Source: Clostridium sp.
GTDB taxonomy: Bacteria; Bacillota; Clostridia; Acetivibrionales; Acetivibrionaceae
Direction of reading: 5' to 3'
Length of the DNA: 36,141 nt
Assembly: GCA_012517995.1 (NCBI GenBank)
Contig: JAAYTS010000011.1
Coordinates: forward strand, 1-36,141
The stretch's first letter is position 1. Every line of letters starts with the position of its first letter. Under the pieces are notes generated by a model. That model did not search any database, had not been told where the DNA came from, and saw only the letters and a list, made by a program, of their open reading frames with translations. Below, piece after piece: positions 10,093 through 25,146 of the stretch. The translations under genes and the position numbers were made by a program.

Positions 10093-12162
10093 TTACTCGG
10101 AAGTTTTTACAACATCAGCCAGTGTAACTTCCATTTCTTCTTTGTGTTCTGTAACTTCCGTCTCTTCTTTATTTTCTTCTTTAGCTTCCTCTGTGCTGTC
10201 GCCTGGCGGGTCTATTGGTTTTACTTCTTTAATGCTAAGGTTGATTTTTTTGTTTTCAACATCCATTTCAATTATTTTAGCATCAACTTCCATTCCAACT
10301 TCTAAAACATCTTCAACTTTTGCAATACGTTTATTTGATATCTGAGAAATGTGAACAAGACCGTCTACACCTTCTATAATTTCAACAAATGCTCCAAAAG
10401 GCGTCATTCTTAAAACTTTAACAGTAACAATAACTCCTTCTTTATACATTTGACCCACTTTAACCCATGGGTTATCTTCTTGTTTTCTGTAACCTAAAGA
10501 GATTTTTTTCTTATCTTTGTCAAACTCTAGTACATGAACTTCTACAGTATCACCCACTTTTAAAATTTCGGAAGGATGATCTATTCTAGACCATGATAAT
10601 TCAGAAACATGTATAAGCCCATCTACACCGCCTATATCAACAAAAGCACCAAATTTAGTCAGGCTTTTTACAACTCCACTGTAAGATTTGCCCACTTCTA
10701 TATTTCCCCAAATCTCTTTAGAAGCTTTTTCTTTTCTCTCTTCAAGAATTACTCTTGCTGAGCCAACTAATTTGCGTCTCTTTTCATTAAAATCAATTAG
10801 TCTTAATTCTATAGTTCTTTTTAAATATTCTCTTAAATCTTTTACATATCTGTCACTTAATTGAGAGCCAGGTACAAAAATTCTAACCCCCTTGTAGCTA
10901 GCTACTACTCCTCCATTAACAACTTCAATTACAATAGCTTTTAAAGGTGTCTTATCCTCATAAGCTTTTTCTACTTCTTCCCAAGCTTTATTTGCTTCAA
11001 CTTGTTTTTTTGAAAGTCTGACATTGCCTTCTCCATCATTAATTTGTTGAACAAAAACTTCAATTTCATCCCCTATTTTTACTTCTTTTTCAATTTGAAA
11101 GTCAGGTATATCGGTGTACTCTTCAAGAGATATTATTCCATCAGCTTTATAGCCTAGATCTACAAAAACCTCATTGGCATTAAAACCAATTACCTTTCCT
11201 TTTATAATATCTCCTGCTTGTATTCTTACAAAAGAATCTTCCAAAGCATCGGCAAAATTAATTTCACCATTATTTTCTTCATTTTTAGTTACTTCTTGAT
11301 TGTTTAGTTCACTCATTTTTTTAATAACCTCCTCAATTACCCAGTCCGGTGTCGAAGCCCCGGCAGAAATTCCTATTTTTTTTATTTTTTCAACATCTAT
11401 CTGTGGTAAATCAGCAGATGTCTCTACCTTAAAAGTCATAGCACAGTGTTTTTTGGAAATATCGCAAAGTTTTTGCGTGTTTGAACTATTTCTATCTCCA
11501 ATTATTATCATCACATCTACAGTTTTGGATATTTCCTCCACTTCGCTTTGTCTTTTACTTGTGGCACTACATATTGTATCAAATTTTAAGATGTTTTCAA
11601 ATTTTTCTTTTAAACATTCATTTATTTCGTGCCATCTGTCTTTAGTAATGGTTGTTTGCGCTACAACACAAACTTTTTCATCGGTTTTTTTAATTAATTT
11701 TACATCATCAACACTGTTTATTATATAGGCATTATTGTTACACCAGCCATTAATTCCGATTACTTCGGGATGGTTTTTGTCACCCACAATTATTATCCTG
11801 TAGCCTTCATTACTCTTTTCTTCTACAAGATTGTGTATTTTTTTTACATATGGACATGTAGCATCTTCCAAAATCAACCCCTTATCTTTAATCTTTTTAT
11901 ATATAATTGGTGTAACACCATGCGCTCTAATAACAATATGACCTTTTCCATCAATATTACCATCTATATCATCTAAATCATTTATATCTTTTATTATTCT
12001 TACCCCTTTTTCCCTAAGGTAATTTACCACCTGTTCATTGTGAATGATAGGTCCAAAGGTGTATATTTGTTTATTATTTGTTTTTAGCATTTCATAAACT
12101 TTTTTTACAGCATTGTCTACTCCAAAACAAAATCCTGCTGATTTGGCTATAATTATTTCCAA
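10093..12162 (-). CDS. ispH-rpsA: Fused IspH (HMBPP reductase) and ribosomal protein S1
   Basis: This 689-residue fusion is typical of Clostridia. Residues 1-285 are IspH, the iron-sulfur reductase ending the MEP isoprenoid pathway. The cluster cysteines are C12 (GFCFGV), C103 (DATCPYV) and C198 (DTICSAT), with H41, H81 (RAHGV) and HPEV (131-134) also conserved. Four S1 RNA-binding domains follow at about 313-386, 402-470, 491-560 and 576-645, then an acidic tail, as in S1 proteins that help recruit mRNA to ribosomes. The start is TTG at 12162, with GGAGG seven bases upstream inside the end of plsC, two bases after the plsC stop. The TTG start may limit output. Confidence 0.96.
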
Positions 12163-17486: not shown

Positions 17487-20400
17487 TTATTTTTCCTCAA
17501 CCGGGAATTTGTCAATATATACCAACAAGTACCTTCCTAAAAGAGTTAAATCTATAGAGTTAATAACTCCGTCTCCATTTAAGTCAGCAGCTTCTTTTCG
17601 TACTGGAAGTTCTTTAATAATTTCAAGAAGATATCTTGAAAGCATTGTATAGTCTATTGAGTTTATTTTCCCGTCACCACTTATGTCACCATATAAAATC
17701 TTTTCAGGCTCAGGCACAAATGGCGGCGGATCAATTGGAGTGGAAATTAATTCATCTGTTTCTATAGTTACAACTTCCGTCTTTCCTGAATTTATAATGT
17801 CACGGGAAGTGGTGCTTTGGATTACAGGTCCCTGTGCAGTATATACACCTGGACTTACAACCCTTGCAAGATATTCAATATACGGATTTGATTTCCAATA
17901 ACTGCTGTTATAAACGTAGAAAGTTACTTTCTGGCCTTCAGTATTATACATGGATCTATTAGGCTTCAGTCCTGAAGGAAGATAGTCGGTTATTTCATAA
18001 ACCCCGTCAAATGCTGTGTCGCTAATCCTCCATGTAAGTCTCACCTTTATAACATCTCCCTGCTTCAATGTGTTTGAATTTAAAGGAGTGCCGTTCATAT
18101 GGTAGTATGTGCGGCTGATGGAAATATCATTGCTCTTTTGTTTTATGTCAAATACATTTTCTTTGAAAACAGATACTAAACCAACATCCCCTTTTACATC
18201 TGTTATTTTTAAGTTTTTAAGCTGCATTGGCAATAATCTTAAGGAAAAACTTTTTCCATTTGTAAGTTGTACCCTTCTCTCTTCCCCGTCATAATTGTAA
18301 GTAAATTCTGCATCTTCTGTACTTAAGTTTTTAATTTTTTCACTGATAAACAGAAGTTTTTCTATGTATATAAGTCTGTCCCGTAAACGTCCAAGAGCAC
18401 AGTATTCATACATGCCTTCACTTTCAGGCTTATCAAGCAATGCTGCAAGATATGAGCAAAGTCCGGTAACCTCTGAAATATCACCTTTAGAAGAATCTAT
18501 CTTAACTCTGTAATATGGTGCATATTCTTCTATATATGGGGATATTCTTTCATTGTATATTTCTTCAGCCTTTGTCATGTCACCTATTTCATAGTAGGCA
18601 AGAGCCAGATATATGAGGTCTGTTACGCCTAAATTATCAATGGTTTCAGCTTCATTAAGCTCTAAAAGAACAGGTTCTCCCAATACAGAAAGTCCGTACA
18701 ATGCCTTTATTCTGTTGGAACTTATATTAAGGTTTCTTTTAAAGTATTGTTTTAACTGCTCTGTATTAACCATATCCTTTGCAAAAACAACCATTTTTGC
18801 AGTTAAATCAATATCGCTTTCTGAATAAGTAAACAATGCCAGACCGCCGTCGGCTTTTTGGTACTCTGAAACATTAGGTTTTTCTAGTGCAGGTAAATAG
18901 TGGTCTTCACTAAAGTATTCATTCAACAATTTTGATGCCAAATACCTGGATATAATTTGATCCAGCCTTCCTCCAAAAACATAATTTAAGTTTTTCAAAT
19001 CCCTAAAGTACATACCTTTACTTTTGTCCTGGAACACAAGAGTGGTAAATCCCTGTTCTCCCGCTGGTATATCCATGTCAGGTGAAACTATTGAAAATTC
19101 GGCTTTTTCAATTTGGTAATAAGAGTCAAATACATTTACCGAATGCAATACGGCATCGGAAAATCCATTTTCAGTATATGCCCTTATTATTAAATCATAG
19201 TGCCCTTCTTCAAAAGTCCAAAGGGGTATATTTACTCTTTCAAAAGCTTTTCCTTTTACAGTAATCTTAGTATCCGGATCAGCCTTGTCATATACTTCAA
19301 AATACACATCTTCATCTTCTTCAAGTCCGCTTCCGTAAGCATTTACACCCATTACAGGCTTGTCACCGGCCAAATAGGATGTATTGAAGCTGTAGTTTAT
19401 AAAAAACGGCAGTGTCACTATCATGTTAACCTTTTCGCTTCCGGCATTTAGTTCTTTTGATATTGCTGACATGGTTATTCTCCATGAAGTAACATTGTCA
19501 GGAAGTTTGAAAGAAGCCGTACCTGTTCCGTCAGTTCCGGTATTTATACTTAAAAAGTTTGCTGTGTCTCTAAAGTCAGACCTTACATCAGAAGATTTAT
19601 TAATACCGTCTACATCACCATTAGGAGGAGCACCCCAACCTGGTTCCGGCGCCATTTCAACTCTTTCACGCAGTTCGGCATCTATATTGTGGGATTTTTT
19701 ATCAAAGTATATTCCTGAAGCTATACGTACATACAAATCACTAAGTATATTTACGTATTGATTTCTTAAACTGAAGAAAGCTTCATCAACAATACTTATA
19801 TTTACAACTGATTTAACGGGATTTCCGTCTTTGTCTTTCACACTTACTTTTAAGTTTACCGTATCCCCCGGTTTGTAAAAATCTTTATCTGTTTCTCCTG
19901 CAATAGTGAGATTTTTTTCTTCCATATCATATACAATGTTTCTTCTTGCAGTAATATATGTTCTGCCGGTAAAACAAACCGAAGTTGCATAAACATTTGG
20001 CATGTAATCTTCTAAAAATTCAAAAGTATGGGTTGATGAATTGGATACATCATAATGTACAATCCCGTTTTGAGACAGGATATAGATGTAATTTTCGTAC
20101 GGAAGATTTTCATTTCCAAATACAAAATCCAATTTTACGTCCTCGCCTATACCGTACTTTTCTTTATCGCTTTTTAATGTATAAGAATTGCTTCCGGAAT
20201 TAGAATAGCTAATTTGTTTTCCAATATACACTGTACCGAAAGACATAGATCTTCCTGAGTTATCTTCACACCATAGTTTAGCAGTGTAGTAGGAATCCTT
20301 TATTTCCGGAGCGTCAAAATTATAAAAAGCCGTTCCCGATTTACTTGTATTCATTGAAAAATTCTTTATAGGCTTGGTTTCAAGTGTCCATCTGTATATG

Positions 20401-22727
20401 TCATAAGTAACTTTGTTAATTGGATCATAATATGTTCCTGATTTTTCTTTATTCCATGTGTTCAGATAAATGGTACCGTTTATGGTTTTACCACCCACCG
20501 GAGCTCCTAAATAGTCATTATAGTGGGCAGCGGTTCCGTTATTCAGACGGTCTAGCACAATTTCATTTACTTCCGCATCAACACGTCCTATTCCCTTTTC
20601 TATTTTTCCGCTGTATTTAACATTAATGTCATTGACAAAAACCCTCACTGAGTCAGAAGCCCTGATTTCTCCGGTTTCAGGCAAAGTTGCCCTGGCAGTT
20701 ACCGGAATAGTATAAATTCCCTGAACATTTTTTGTTGCCTCCGGAACATATTTTATATTTAATTTTCCGGAAACATCCGTTGTCCCTGTTCCTTCTATTG
20801 ACTTATCAGTTAATGAACTTGTTCCTATAGTATAACTTGTATTTAAATCTGATACTCCTGTTCCCTCAAAAAATGATGCACTAAGATTAAAGTTTACCTC
20901 TTCACCTAAAAAAACGGCAACTTTGTCTTTTTCAAATTCCATTTTATATGAAGGTTTTACATATTCCTGAACATCAATAATACTAGATACAATAACTGAA
21001 TCGCCTTTTTTTAGTCTTATTGTATAATAGCCTTTCGGCAAATTAGGAAGCTGGATTTTTTCTTCAAAGAAATTATCTTGTACACTTATGTTCTTTTTAA
21101 TAACAGGAAATACGTCTTTGGTCGGACGGTCGTAATAATAAGGGCTGTAATAGTAATAACCCTCAAATAATTCCAAAGTAAGATGGTCTATATCTTCATC
21201 TTCATACCTGTTTTTTATAAATCCCCATATATTTACGGTATCATAAGGCTTATACATTCCCCTGTCGGTGAAAAAATATCTCCAGTAATAATTGCCTCCT
21301 CCATAACTGCAGGAACTGGTTTCTAAAAGGGTTTTTTTACCTTCTGCAGTTTTTACACAAAGGAACTGTTTGGTGTAAATATAATTCGATCCGTAATATC
21401 TATAAAAATAATTATCTGTAGAATAATATTCGTCATAGTAAAAATAATCGTATCTGGTACCGGTATCTTCTTTTATAATAGGATCAATCAGTTCAGTGTC
21501 AAGTACTGCAATTCCGTCATCGTCTGTAACAAATGTATCATCAGTATTTGAAAAACTAATAACGGCACCTTTTAAAGGCTTCTTAGTTTCCATATCGTTA
21601 ACCCATATTAAAGTGTCTGTTATGCTTTTGGTTATGTAAACACTGGTATTGGTTATTTGCACAAAAGTCTGCGTTCTTTTATCTTCACAGTAACTGTCTA
21701 AAATATAATAACCCTCCGGAAGTTCCTGAGGAATTGTAATGGTTGCACTTCCGGACCTTCTTCCGTCTTCATTAAGTTTTTGATCAAATTCAAGAATTTT
21801 TTTCAAACCGTCAACAGGCAGAAAAATGTTGTTATAGTTAATTTGCGCCCAGTCCGGACAGCTGTTCCTTATCATAACGGCTTTATAAAAAGATTCAAAA
21901 TCATCATATGCGTAAACACTTGTATTGAGATTTAAAAACATAGGACCGTTAGAATTGCTTATGTAAAAGTGTAAAGGAACTTGAACTTTATCTTCAGTGG
22001 AAAAATCGGTAATTTGTCTAGTGTAATTAATAGTTATTACAGGTTTTCCTGGGGGGTTTTCTTCAGGTTTTGCAGCTGTTTCAAATGAAAATACATAATC
22101 ATCCTCTATTGTCCTGTCTGTGCCATTTATTTTGATACCTTTTTTTATCCTAACTGTATAAATTGTCTCATATTCTAAATTATTGCTTGGAATAAATGCA
22201 GCTGTCTTGCCATTATACACTTGAAATCTTCCAGGAACATTTGGCGTAATCTCAAAGTATTCCTCTATATTACTAAAGTTTTCGTGACTAAAGATGATTT
22301 CTATTCCAGTATTTACAGGAACTCCTATGGTTTCATTTCCGGGAAATGCACTTATAATTTCAAATTTAGTTTGAGTCTGAAAAACCCAGGTTGTCTCAGT
22401 ATCTGTCTTCATTCTGAAAGTATAAATACTGTTTTCAATAAGTGGTCTTGACAAATTAATGCTAAAAAAGTTTTTGTCCAGCTCTGTTATAATTGGGTCT
22501 GGCTCCCCATCAATTGAAAAGGCTTTTTTTACCTCTTCTAGTGAAAAATCTTTTTCTGTTTCAAGTAAAAATTCAGTATCTACAGCAATGCCAGTGTGGT
22601 CAGATTCTAAGGGTACTAAGCGGTAACCATTACGCGGATAAGCAGCCCTACCCGATGCAAACACAGAAATACATGTTGTTAAAATTAAACATGTAATAAT
22701 AAGTAGTGAAGTTGCTTTTCTATACAT
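17487..22727 (-). CDS. Secreted alpha-2-macroglobulin-like protein with C-terminal type I dockerin
   Basis: This 1746-residue protein starts with a signal peptide (about 1-25), then two Ig-like Big_5-type domains (about 40-218). A long macroglobulin body follows, with the bacterial MG2 signature FTDRGMYKPYDTVNIWG (486-502) and the A2M core LPDNVTSWRITMSAIS near 1075-1090. A dockerin sits at 1678-1746 with calcium loops GDISGDGKINSID and ADLNGDGVINSID. Bacterial A2Ms can trap proteases through a Cys-Gln thioester (GCxEQ); the equivalent site reads GGRLDQ (1252-1257), without Cys, so covalent trapping is unlikely. The dockerin implies attachment to a cellulosome scaffoldin, perhaps as protease protection or structural coat. 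It diverges from a GH9 cellulase gene. The first 230 codons are CpG-poor relative to the rest, a sign of mosaic origin. Confidence 0.93.
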   Translation of the reverse strand: MYRKATSLLIITCLILTTCISVFASGRAAYPRNGYRLVPLESDHTGIAVDTEFLLETEKDFSLEEVKKAFSIDGEPDPIITELDKNFFSINLSRPLIENSIYTFRMKTDTETTWVFQTQTKFEIISAFPGNETIGVPVNTGIEIIFSHENFSNIEEYFEITPNVPGRFQVYNGKTAAFIPSNNLEYETIYTVRIKKGIKINGTDRTIEDDYVFSFETAAKPEENPPGKPVITINYTRQITDFSTEDKVQVPLHFYISNSNGPMFLNLNTSVYAYDDFESFYKAVMIRNSCPDWAQINYNNIFLPVDGLKKILEFDQKLNEDGRRSGSATITIPQELPEGYYILDSYCEDKRTQTFVQITNTSVYITKSITDTLIWVNDMETKKPLKGAVISFSNTDDTFVTDDDGIAVLDTELIDPIIKEDTGTRYDYFYYDEYYSTDNYFYRYYGSNYIYTKQFLCVKTAEGKKTLLETSSCSYGGGNYYWRYFFTDRGMYKPYDTVNIWGFIKNRYEDEDIDHLTLELFEGYYYYSPYYYDRPTKDVFPVIKKNISVQDNFFEEKIQLPNLPKGYYTIRLKKGDSVIVSSIIDVQEYVKPSYKMEFEKDKVAVFLGEEVNFNLSASFFEGTGVSDLNTSYTIGTSSLTDKSIEGTGTTDVSGKLNIKYVPEATKNVQGIYTIPVTARATLPETGEIRASDSVRVFVNDINVKYSGKIEKGIGRVDAEVNEIVLDRLNNGTAAHYNDYLGAPVGGKTINGTIYLNTWNKEKSGTYYDPINKVTYDIYRWTLETKPIKNFSMNTSKSGTAFYNFDAPEIKDSYYTAKLWCEDNSGRSMSFGTVYIGKQISYSNSGSNSYTLKSDKEKYGIGEDVKLDFVFGNENLPYENYIYILSQNGIVHYDVSNSSTHTFEFLEDYMPNVYATSVCFTGRTYITARRNIVYDMEEKNLTIAGETDKDFYKPGDTVNLKVSVKDKDGNPVKSVVNISIVDEAFFSLRNQYVNILSDLYVRIASGIYFDKKSHNIDAELRERVEMAPEPGWGAPPNGDVDGINKSSDVRSDFRDTANFLSINTGTDGTGTASFKLPDNVTSWRITMSAISKELNAGSEKVNMIVTLPFFINYSFNTSYLAGDKPVMGVNAYGSGLEEDEDVYFEVYDKADPDTKITVKGKAFERVNIPLWTFEEGHYDLIIRAYTENGFSDAVLHSVNVFDSYYQIEKAEFSIVSPDMDIPAGEQGFTTLVFQDKSKGMYFRDLKNLNYVFGGRLDQIISRYLASKLLNEYFSEDHYLPALEKPNVSEYQKADGGLALFTYSESDIDLTAKMVVFAKDMVNTEQLKQYFKRNLNISSNRIKALYGLSVLGEPVLLELNEAETIDNLGVTDLIYLALAYYEIGDMTKAEEIYNERISPYIEEYAPYYRVKIDSSKGDISEVTGLCSYLAALLDKPESEGMYEYCALGRLRDRLIYIEKLLFISEKIKNLSTEDAEFTYNYDGEERRVQLTNGKSFSLRLLPMQLKNLKITDVKGDVGLVSVFKENVFDIKQKSNDISISRTYYHMNGTPLNSNTLKQGDVIKVRLTWRISDTAFDGVYEITDYLPSGLKPNRSMYNTEGQKVTFYVYNSSYWKSNPYIEYLARVVSPGVYTAQGPVIQSTTSRDIINSGKTEVVTIETDELISTPIDPPPFVPEPEKILYGDISGDGKINSIDYTMLSRYLLEIIKELPVRKEAADLNGDGVINSIDLTLLGRYLLVYIDKFPVEEK

Positions 22728-22935
22728 TTTTCCTCCCCCTTTTTTTTCTTCATATTTTAATTATACAACATATTTTGACGTTATAAAAACAAAATAAGTT
22801 TCATTTTAATAACTAAATTAAAATATTATTTGCTGTACATACAAGGAGTAACATTATATAATTAAAATAGAGGTGAGATGTTAGATATAATAAATTTTAT
22901 ATAAAATATAATTTTTATAAAGGAGAGTATAAGTT
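22728..22935. promoter_or_regulatory. Divergent control region between the two dockerin genes
   Basis: This 208-bp AT-rich region carries ribosome binding sites at both ends. A perfect TATAAT for the minus-strand gene lies at 22765-22760 (its -35 is poor), and the plus-strand promoter lies at 22834-22862. Shared control of both cellulosomal genes is plausible. Confidence 0.5.
22834..22862 (+). promoter_or_regulatory. Candidate promoter of the GH9 cellulase gene
   Basis: TGTACA (22834-22839, four of six to consensus), a 17-bp spacer and TATAAT (22857-22862) lie about 74 bp before the ATG at 22936. An alternative sigma factor cannot be excluded. Confidence 0.45.
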
Positions 22936-25146
22936 ATGCTAAAAAGAAGAGGTGTAAACAAGAGAATTACTTTTTTAACTGCATTTGTTGTGCTAGTATC
23001 ACTTTTACTGCCTTCTTTTGTGATGCAGCCGATAACCTTTGCCAGCTCCTCTCCAAGAGAAGGAGACCAGTATTATAATTATGGTGAAGCATTGCAAAAG
23101 GCACTTTTATTTTACAAGGCAAACCGTCTTGGAGACCTGCCAGATGATTACATTTTGCCTTATAGGGCAGATGCAGCAATGACAGACGGTCAGGACGTGG
23201 GTCTTGATTTAACAGGTGGCTGGGCTGATGCTGGTGATGGAATTAAGTTTACCCACACCATTTCATATGCTGCAGCACAGCTTGGATGGGCTGTATATGA
23301 ATACAGGCAGGCTTTTAAAAATGTAGGATTATTAGAGGACATATTAGATGAAATTAAATGGGGAACAGATTTTTTAATTAAAGCAAATCCAGAACCTAAT
23401 GTTTTTTACTATATGTGTGGACATGGAGACTCTGACCACTCAGTGTGGGTTCCTCATGAGTTTTTGGATTATGTAACTGACAGAAGTTCATTTAGATTGG
23501 ATCCATCAACGCCTGGTTCTGATGTTGCAGGTATGAGTGCTGCAGCTCTTGCTATAGCTTCTTTAATATTTGAAGAGACAGACCCTGAATATTCAGAAAA
23601 ATGTCTAATGCATGCAGAGAGAATTTTTGACTTTGCCTATACATACCAAGGTAAAAACCCTCTAAATATTTTATATCCATCTGGAAGCTATGTGGATGAC
23701 CTTGCATGGGGTGCCATTTGGCTTTATATAAAGACAGGAGAACAGCATTACTTAGATAAGTCAATTTCAATTATGCCTGTTAATACAATAGGCGGATATC
23801 ATACTCATTGCTGGGATGATGTAAGTTATGGTGCAGCAATTAAAATAGCTCAGGTAACAAAAGACGAAGAATACTCCTTTATGGTGGAGAGAAATTTAGA
23901 CTTTTTCTTGCCTGGTGGAGGTATAACTTATAGTCCTGGTGGGTTAGCATGGCTTTCCCAATGGGGTTCTTTGCGTTATGCCAGCACAGCAGCATTTTTG
24001 GCTTTTGTATGGTCTGATGATAAAACTGTTGGAACCCTTTCAAAAAAAGATGAGTATAGAAAATTTGCTGAAAGACAAATAAACTACATATTAGGTGATA
24101 ATCCACGTGGAGGAAGTTATGTAGTAGGTTTTGGAGAAAATGCTCCTAAACATCCTCATCATAGAACTGCACATGGTTCGTGGGTAAGTATGACTGAGGC
24201 ACCTCCATTTAGCAGACATATACTATATGGTGCTTTAGTTGGTGGTCCTGATTCAAAAGATTTTTGGGAAGATAATATTAATGACTATATTATGAATGAA
24301 GTGGCAATTGACTATAATGCAGGTTTTGTAGGTGCTCTTGCTAAAATGATTGATATGTATGGTGGGAAAATACTTGAAAATTGGCCACAGCCTGAAGATT
24401 TCAGAGCACCTGAAGACGATTTAGAAGAATACTTTGTAAGAGCTTGGAGAATGTATGAGGGTTTTGGAACGGTAAATGTACTCTTTCAAGTTAACAATCG
24501 TTCAGCAAGACCTCCAACAGTAAAAGATAAACTATCTGCTCGCTATTTCATGGATTTGACAGAAGTATTTGAAGCAGGTCATGGTTTAGATGCTGTTGAA
24601 ATTAAACTTGGTTCCCATGAAGGTGCAACACTCCATGGTTTGGAACACTATGCAGACAATATATATTATTTTACTGTTGATTTTTCAGGTACCCTGCTTA
24701 TGCCTGCTGAGTGGAAACTTTGTCAAAAGGAAGCTAATGTATCAATTTCATATAAAAATGGTGTTGGAAGCCATGAAAATGACTGGTCATATCCAGGAAT
24801 ACATGATGACCCTGACTATGATAACATATCCTTTGCTGGTATGACACCTTTAATACCAATATATGATGATGGTGTACTTCTTTGGGGTGAAGAGCCTCCA
24901 GGAGGTCCAGATGTTCCTGAGCCAACAACTTCCCCAGAACCAAGTGTTGTATATGGGGATTTAAATGAAGATGGAATAATTAACTCAACTGACTATATGC
25001 TTCTTGGAAGAATTGTTTTAGAAATTCCAGTTGAAAATGTGAATATGGAAGCTGCTGATATAAACGGTGACGATATAATTAATTCAACAGATTCCGTTAT
25101 TTTAAGCAGATACATACTTGAAATAATTGATAAGCTGCCTAGATAG
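22936..25146 (+). CDS. Cellulosomal GH9 cellulase with CBM3c and type I dockerin
   Basis: This 736-residue secreted glucanase has a signal peptide (about 1-37), a GH9 catalytic domain (about 46-490), a CBM3c module (about 498-650), a PEPTTSPEPS linker and a dockerin (about 671-736). Catalytic residues fit GH9: D98 and D101 in GGWADAGDG, PHHRTAHGSW (407-416) and the acid E455 in NEVAIDYNAGF. GH9-CBM3c pairs are usually processive endoglucanases on crystalline cellulose. The usual DAGDHVKF reads DAGDGIKF, so the conserved His after the second Asp is Gly, and the Tyr in GGWYDAGD is Ala. The dockerin has Ser-Thr recognition pairs at 684-685 and 717-718; its second calcium loop reads NGDDI instead of NGDGx. 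AAAGGAG precedes the ATG. Confidence 0.96.
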   Translation: MLKRRGVNKRITFLTAFVVLVSLLLPSFVMQPITFASSSPREGDQYYNYGEALQKALLFYKANRLGDLPDDYILPYRADAAMTDGQDVGLDLTGGWADAGDGIKFTHTISYAAAQLGWAVYEYRQAFKNVGLLEDILDEIKWGTDFLIKANPEPNVFYYMCGHGDSDHSVWVPHEFLDYVTDRSSFRLDPSTPGSDVAGMSAAALAIASLIFEETDPEYSEKCLMHAERIFDFAYTYQGKNPLNILYPSGSYVDDLAWGAIWLYIKTGEQHYLDKSISIMPVNTIGGYHTHCWDDVSYGAAIKIAQVTKDEEYSFMVERNLDFFLPGGGITYSPGGLAWLSQWGSLRYASTAAFLAFVWSDDKTVGTLSKKDEYRKFAERQINYILGDNPRGGSYVVGFGENAPKHPHHRTAHGSWVSMTEAPPFSRHILYGALVGGPDSKDFWEDNINDYIMNEVAIDYNAGFVGALAKMIDMYGGKILENWPQPEDFRAPEDDLEEYFVRAWRMYEGFGTVNVLFQVNNRSARPPTVKDKLSARYFMDLTEVFEAGHGLDAVEIKLGSHEGATLHGLEHYADNIYYFTVDFSGTLLMPAEWKLCQKEANVSISYKNGVGSHENDWSYPGIHDDPDYDNISFAGMTPLIPIYDDGVLLWGEEPPGGPDVPEPTTSPEPSVVYGDLNEDGIINSTDYMLLGRIVLEIPVENVNMEAADINGDDIINSTDSVILSRYILEIIDKLPR

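Follow-up and report, generated by a model that had tools for sequence, protein, structure and literature searches.

A dockerin-bearing, thioester-less alpha-2-macroglobulin-like protein from a clostridial genome, a candidate protease trap of the cellulosome

The gene and its surroundings

The window analysed here is a stretch of 36,141 nucleotides from a Clostridium sp. contig (JAAYTS010000011.1), which a first-pass annotation described as holding an alpha-2-macroglobulin-like (A2M) protein with a dockerin. The open reading frame confirms the coordinates of that gene, 17487 to 22727, and puts it on the minus strand. Its translation has 1746 amino acids, and the coordinates include the stop codon. 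The features are as follows.

17487..22727, minus strand: dockerin-bearing, thioester-less A2M gene, residue 1 at 22727 (open reading frame, translation, Pfam, homologues)
22650..22727, minus strand: predicted Sec signal peptide, about residues 1-26, an ordinary-looking hydrophobic N-terminus, MYRKATSLLIITCLILTTCISVFASG
22077..22373, minus strand: Big_5 Ig-like domain, residues 119-217 (Pfam, 2.3e-9)
20178..22052, minus strand: run of macroglobulin (MG) domains, about residues 226-850 (MG2 at 1.2e-11, a weak bMG3; AlphaFold; Foldseek)
19767..20180, minus strand: A2M_BRD bait-region domain, residues 850-987 (Pfam, 7e-14)
19590..19712, minus strand: predicted bait loop, residues 1006-1046 (pLDDT below 50 at model positions 177-217; dN/dS; low identity and indels)
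19359..19556, minus strand: A2M family domain PF00207, residues 1058-1123 (Pfam, 6.9e-8)
18327..19019, minus strand: helical TED, about residues 1237-1467 (11 helices in the AlphaFold model; fold match)
18957..18974, minus strand: GGRLDQ replacing GCxEQ, residues 1252-1257 (direct reading; conservation in homologues)
17886..18125, minus strand: bMG10 domain, residues 1535-1614 (Pfam, 1.6e-7)
17523..17693, minus strand: type I dockerin, residues 1679-1735 (Pfam Dockerin_1, 1e-17, full model; PDB dockerins)
22936..25146, plus strand: GH9 - (weak CBM3) - dockerin cellulase, the divergent neighbour (Pfam, 1.2e-138 and 3.8e-13)

Pfam domains and fold matches of the AlphaFold models to bacterial A2Ms both bear out the A2M architecture: the MG domains are followed by the bait-region domain, the TED and a C-terminal MG domain, as is canonical for the superfamily. 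A TED model is absent from the Pfam matches, and this domain was recognised from the AlphaFold model. The A2M signal is well beyond chance, since full-length homologues exist in many genomes and the whole gene has a dN/dS of 0.19 against its close orthologue L012, that is, it is under purifying selection. It is also the only gene with an A2M_BRD match in this genome, a 3.2 Mb draft. No lipobox is conserved among the orthologues at the N-terminus. Pfam finds no serpin domain (PF00079) in the protein; the serpin of this genome is a separate gene.

The C-terminal type I dockerin, also claimed at first pass, is complete with two Ca-binding repeats. Its identity to the genome's other dockerins is 41-65%, and it belongs to the same class as those on the GH9, GH5 and GH10 enzymes. 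The genome, that of a plant-fibre degrader, has 16 cohesin matches over the cut-off and more than 50 further dockerin matches; the 48 other dockerin proteins that were scanned include GH9 (11), GH5 (5), GH10 (4), CotH (2) and serpin (1) proteins.

The GH9-dockerin cellulase begins 208 bp from the A2M gene and is divergently transcribed. The arrangement of GH9, A2M and RpiR-SIS genes is kept in four further genomes of this genus. In one of them, that of the close relative G004, the A2M frame (L015) is broken by stops near residue 254 with the GH9-dockerin neighbour still present, so the A2M gene must be dispensable there; the copies in the other genomes sharing the neighbourhood are intact. A. 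alkalicellulosi (DSM 17461) has a second copy (L052) at another location, and both of its frames are open.

Two further observations concern this stretch of DNA. Compared with L050, the A2M gene (window 17500-22800) has about 75-84% DNA identity (dS 0.77) and its flanks 86-98% (dS 0.22-0.46). The divergence thus has the size of the gene, which hints at allelic replacement or an unusual turnover. Elsewhere in the window, 10093-12162 on the minus strand encodes a fusion of LytB/IspH with four S1 RNA-binding stretches.

The thioester site

The site expected to read GCxEQ was reported at first pass as GGRLDQ (1252-1257) without a Cys, and direct reading agrees. The missing thioester stands, but the idea that its loss is peculiar to the cellulosomal protein does not, because GxRx[DE]Q without Cys runs across the family. 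Gly1252, Arg1254, Asp1256 and Gln1257 are invariant in 31 of 31 aligned homologues, which gives the pattern G-x-R-[LIV]-D-Q. Among 95 non-redundant members of the family, drawn from Clostridia, Chloroflexota, Acidobacteriota and Uhrbacteria, 74 have the looser G-x-R-[LIVA]-[DE]-Q; several of the others keep the Arg and an acid, and the 21 that lack the motif include fragments. GCxEQ occurs in none of the 95, nor does any of them have a Cys at the site, and no column of the whole homologue alignment is an invariant Cys. The loss of the thioester is therefore ancestral to the family and its replacement under strong constraint. The trait is old, it belongs to the family as a whole, its replacement motif is fixed, and it is no private decay. 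Genuine thioester proteins exist in two related genomes, where L048 and L049 read GCFEQ; among 60 relatives, PF07678 matches these two only. By eye, both also seem to carry several TM-like hydrophobic segments just before the bait region.

It is important to realize that aligning this TED to thioester A2Ms by sequence only is unreliable. In MAFFT and hhalign alignments GCFEQ falls about 20-25 residues before GRLDQ, and when hhalign is given the TED only, the aligned part is just the downstream landmark. We therefore locate the site from the model, in which strand, short helix, loop and helix 1 follow one another, and from two marks in the sequence: an aromatic-x-aromatic-Gly run ahead of it (YPYGCLEQ in YfhM, YSYGNRIDQ in L017) and the landmark GG-[FL]-[AS]-L...LTA after it. 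With the Gly as anchor, the family is one residue longer, and Arg1254 replaces the Cys only if one counts from the Gln; the absence of Cys holds whichever anchor is used. The interrupted genes L015 and K-12 yfaS were read as they stand.

The predicted fold and the bait loop

AlphaFold models made with family alignments have a mean pLDDT of 81.7 for residues 830-1665 and 83.2 for residues 25-850. The best PDB matches of both halves in Foldseek are bacterial A2Ms, the native E. coli and Salmonella proteins, with E values of 5e-38 (830-1665) and 9e-25 (25-850). Against trypsin-activated E. coli A2M, VIA-align 2 gives Z 17.2 over 640 residues at 5.9 A, and in Foldseek and VIA-align the TED stretch of the model matches A2M and complement proteins over its whole length. 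The pTM values, 0.58 and 0.51, make the arrangement of the domains less certain than the domains themselves. Within the TED, C1424 and C1443 (window 18399-18458) lie in neighbouring helices and may form a disulfide; of the ten proteins of the dockerin clade, all have the first and nine the second.

Residues 1006-1046 are the longest disordered stretch within the C-terminal half, at the canonical place of the bait loop. Against L012, dN/dS reaches 0.82 in the bait (residues 1004-1050, 47 codons), with 0.12-0.39 in other segments. Three segments vary most within the dockerin clade: the bait, 220-264 and 410-454. A disordered, fast-changing bait fits a protease-facing role, without proving one.

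A conserved core with exchanged anchors

A single-protein query of the genome contigs gave no match, and an alignment query gave the homologues. In a tree made by a quick method with SH-aLRT support only, all ten dockerin proteins fall on one branch with support 100, and all come from the bacterial family of the window's genome. Going by this tree, the dockerin fusion arose once, in that one family. Relatives of the same architecture include those of Herbivorax sp. ANBcel31 and Acetivibrio alkalicellulosi. A search for a phage origin of the gene found no match.

The sister clade (L063 of Pseudobacteroides cellulosolvens, L021, L022 and L036) ends in Cu_amine_oxidN1 (Pfam, 2.3e-37), which has been termed a cell-surface-binding module (PMC6780208). 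The P. cellulosolvens protein, L021 and L022 have the same core and motif and are 44-47% identical to the dockerin protein, with the surface module and no dockerin. The next clade includes proteins whose thioester-less A2M is preceded by a TM helix and, at the N-terminus, a zf-HC2 anti-sigma zinc finger (L058:8052-13899, also L042, L043 and L044), with an ECF sigma gene one gene upstream in four genomes. The A2M ectodomain of these relatives is likely that of a transmembrane sensor; our search for literature on macroglobulins with anti-sigma factors found no such protein reported. In most of the more distant members there is a single hydrophobic segment at the N-terminus. Across the family the A2M core was retained and its attachment exchanged.

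Relation to the known bacterial A2Ms

Of the two E. coli A2Ms named at first pass, YfaS is the better comparison. It reads NTGSRLIP at the site, with GSRL, which makes the thioester-less Type II A2Ms, and not YfhM, the closest known proteins to compare. YfaS and MagD (Type II; PMC5764988) have in common with the dockerin protein the MG domains, the bait and a TED without CxEQ, and YfaS shares Gly-x-Arg-Leu at the site. The family profile scores YfaS at 139 bits versus 50 for YfhM (Type I), but it also scores clostridial Type I proteins at 139-152 bits, level with YfaS, so descent from Type II is not established by score. YfaS itself sits on a very long branch of our tree with support 66.

There are differences from both types. 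Unlike Type II A2Ms, the protein has a dockerin, is predicted to be extracellular and carries an extra Big_5 domain at its N-terminus; unlike YfaS, it keeps [DE]Q after the Arg. The six-gene mag operon of the Type II proteins is not seen among its immediate neighbours. The best fold match of both halves is to the Type I proteins, E. coli YfhM/ECAM and Salmonella A2M. However, Type I A2Ms have CxEQ and lie beside pbpC, and this gene has no Cys at the site and lies next to GH9-dockerin and RpiR-SIS genes.

What the protein may do

We believe the protein is best read as a secreted thioester-less A2M that its dockerin recruits to the cellulosome, where it would act as a non-covalent protease trap or a sacrificial bait; we give this a probability of roughly one half. 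An attacking protease would cut the bait in its exposed loop, at about 1006-1046, whereupon TED and MG ring would close round the protease and hold it sterically and non-covalently, as reported for MagD. The dockerin would position the trap next to the cellulosomal enzymes, so that the cellulosome would have its own steric trap or at least a sacrificial bait. The GxRx[DE]Q loop before TED helix 1 would serve as a structural latch and not as a reactive site.

The non-covalent mode suggested at first pass gains a precedent, by analogy, in MagD, a Type II A2M reported to trap a protease non-covalently after an engineered bait was cleaved (PMC5764988). For E. coli A2M the cut bait has been proposed to compete for the C-terminal MG domain, freeing the TED (PMC4498604), a release that by itself needs no thioester chemistry. 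From these analogies we infer closure triggered by cleavage and non-covalent trapping, whereas the gene, its fold, the conserved motif, purifying selection with a relaxed bait and a single dockerin fusion are shown directly. Incorporation into the cellulosome and protection are predicted; the class of the dockerin, the cohesins and the dockerin-serpin of the genome and the kept GH9-dockerin neighbour speak for this reading. Several points weigh against this reading. The bait tested in MagD carried an engineered TEV site, the two other segments named above are as variable as the bait, the G004 copy is interrupted and thus dispensable, the pTM values leave the domain arrangement unsure, and the anti-sigma-fused relatives suggest the core may sense rather than trap.

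The MG rod and the TED could instead be a spacer, coat or ligand arm, with the "bait" a flexible linker. The family-wide loss of the thioester suits such a structural or binding module, as do the variable loops besides the bait and an attachment swapped among dockerin, cell-surface module and TM, like that of adhesive surface proteins. We consider this possible but doubtful, since the bait-region domain is retained, a disordered loop lies where a canonical bait would, and a complete A2M order including TED and bMG10 exceeds what a spacer needs. It is the retained, disordered and fast-changing bait loop that makes us favour a trap over a structural coat.

Cleavage of the bait might also signal or release something with the protease never being held, which would make the protein a sensor or a sacrificial decoy. 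The zf-HC2-TM-A2M proteins with their adjacent ECF sigma gene point this way, and their clade is sister to the dockerin plus surface-module clade. We think it unlikely here; lacking both an anti-sigma and a TM part, the dockerin protein could not signal alone, and the role is itself only putative in the zf-HC2 relatives.

It is very improbable that we are looking at the decaying remnant of a former Type I trap that lost both thioester and function. A site without Cys and the broken G004 copy would suit that account, but dN/dS is 0.12-0.19 in most segments, the replacement motif does not vary within the order and most genomes have full-length frames. Recent decay is rejected for the family on the basis of the invariant GxRxDQ and purifying selection. 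A covalent trap using another TED Cys is hardly credible and we reject it, since C1424 (in 24/31 homologues) and C1443 (17/31), though both in TED helices, are neither invariant nor in CxEQ spacing, lie in late helices far from the loop preceding helix 1, and are more simply read as a disulfide or buried thiols.

Significance

Serpins trap proteases covalently, by loop insertion, and neither they nor Dpi are related to the present protein in fold or mechanism. The resemblance lies in where they act: the dockerin-serpins (PinA of C. thermocellum) and Dpi of C. cellulolyticum are putative protease inhibitors docked on the cellulosome, as we predict for this protein, and have been reported as cellulosome protectors and protease inhibitors (PMC12484212). 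The first-pass analogy with dockerin-serpins is strengthened by the one found in the same genome.

What is new here, as judged from the genes, is where the Type II-like A2M core is found, joined to a dockerin. We found no literature joining macroglobulins with dockerins or cellulosomes, including that of thermocellum, in a search mostly of open-access main texts; a listing in some supplementary table is possible. The main texts of the papers on the cellulosomes of C. alkalicellulosi and C. clariflavum (PMC6780208, PMC4582956) do not name an A2M.

More tentatively, and with some doubt, we suggest an old, distinct clostridial lineage of thioester-less A2Ms, carrying the fixed GxRx[DE]Q latch and working non-covalently, that may have been domain-swapped into a surface form (TM or cell-surface module), a transmembrane protease sensor with anti-sigma and ECF factors, and a cellulosome guard with a dockerin. 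If the trap reading is true, an A2M would be a further, unrelated and broad-range protease defence of the cellulosome beyond serpins and Dpi (PMC12484212). Complement-like bacterial proteins would then extend to an extracellular machine of Gram-positives, and thioester-free A2M action would become testable in a soluble, single-chain protein.
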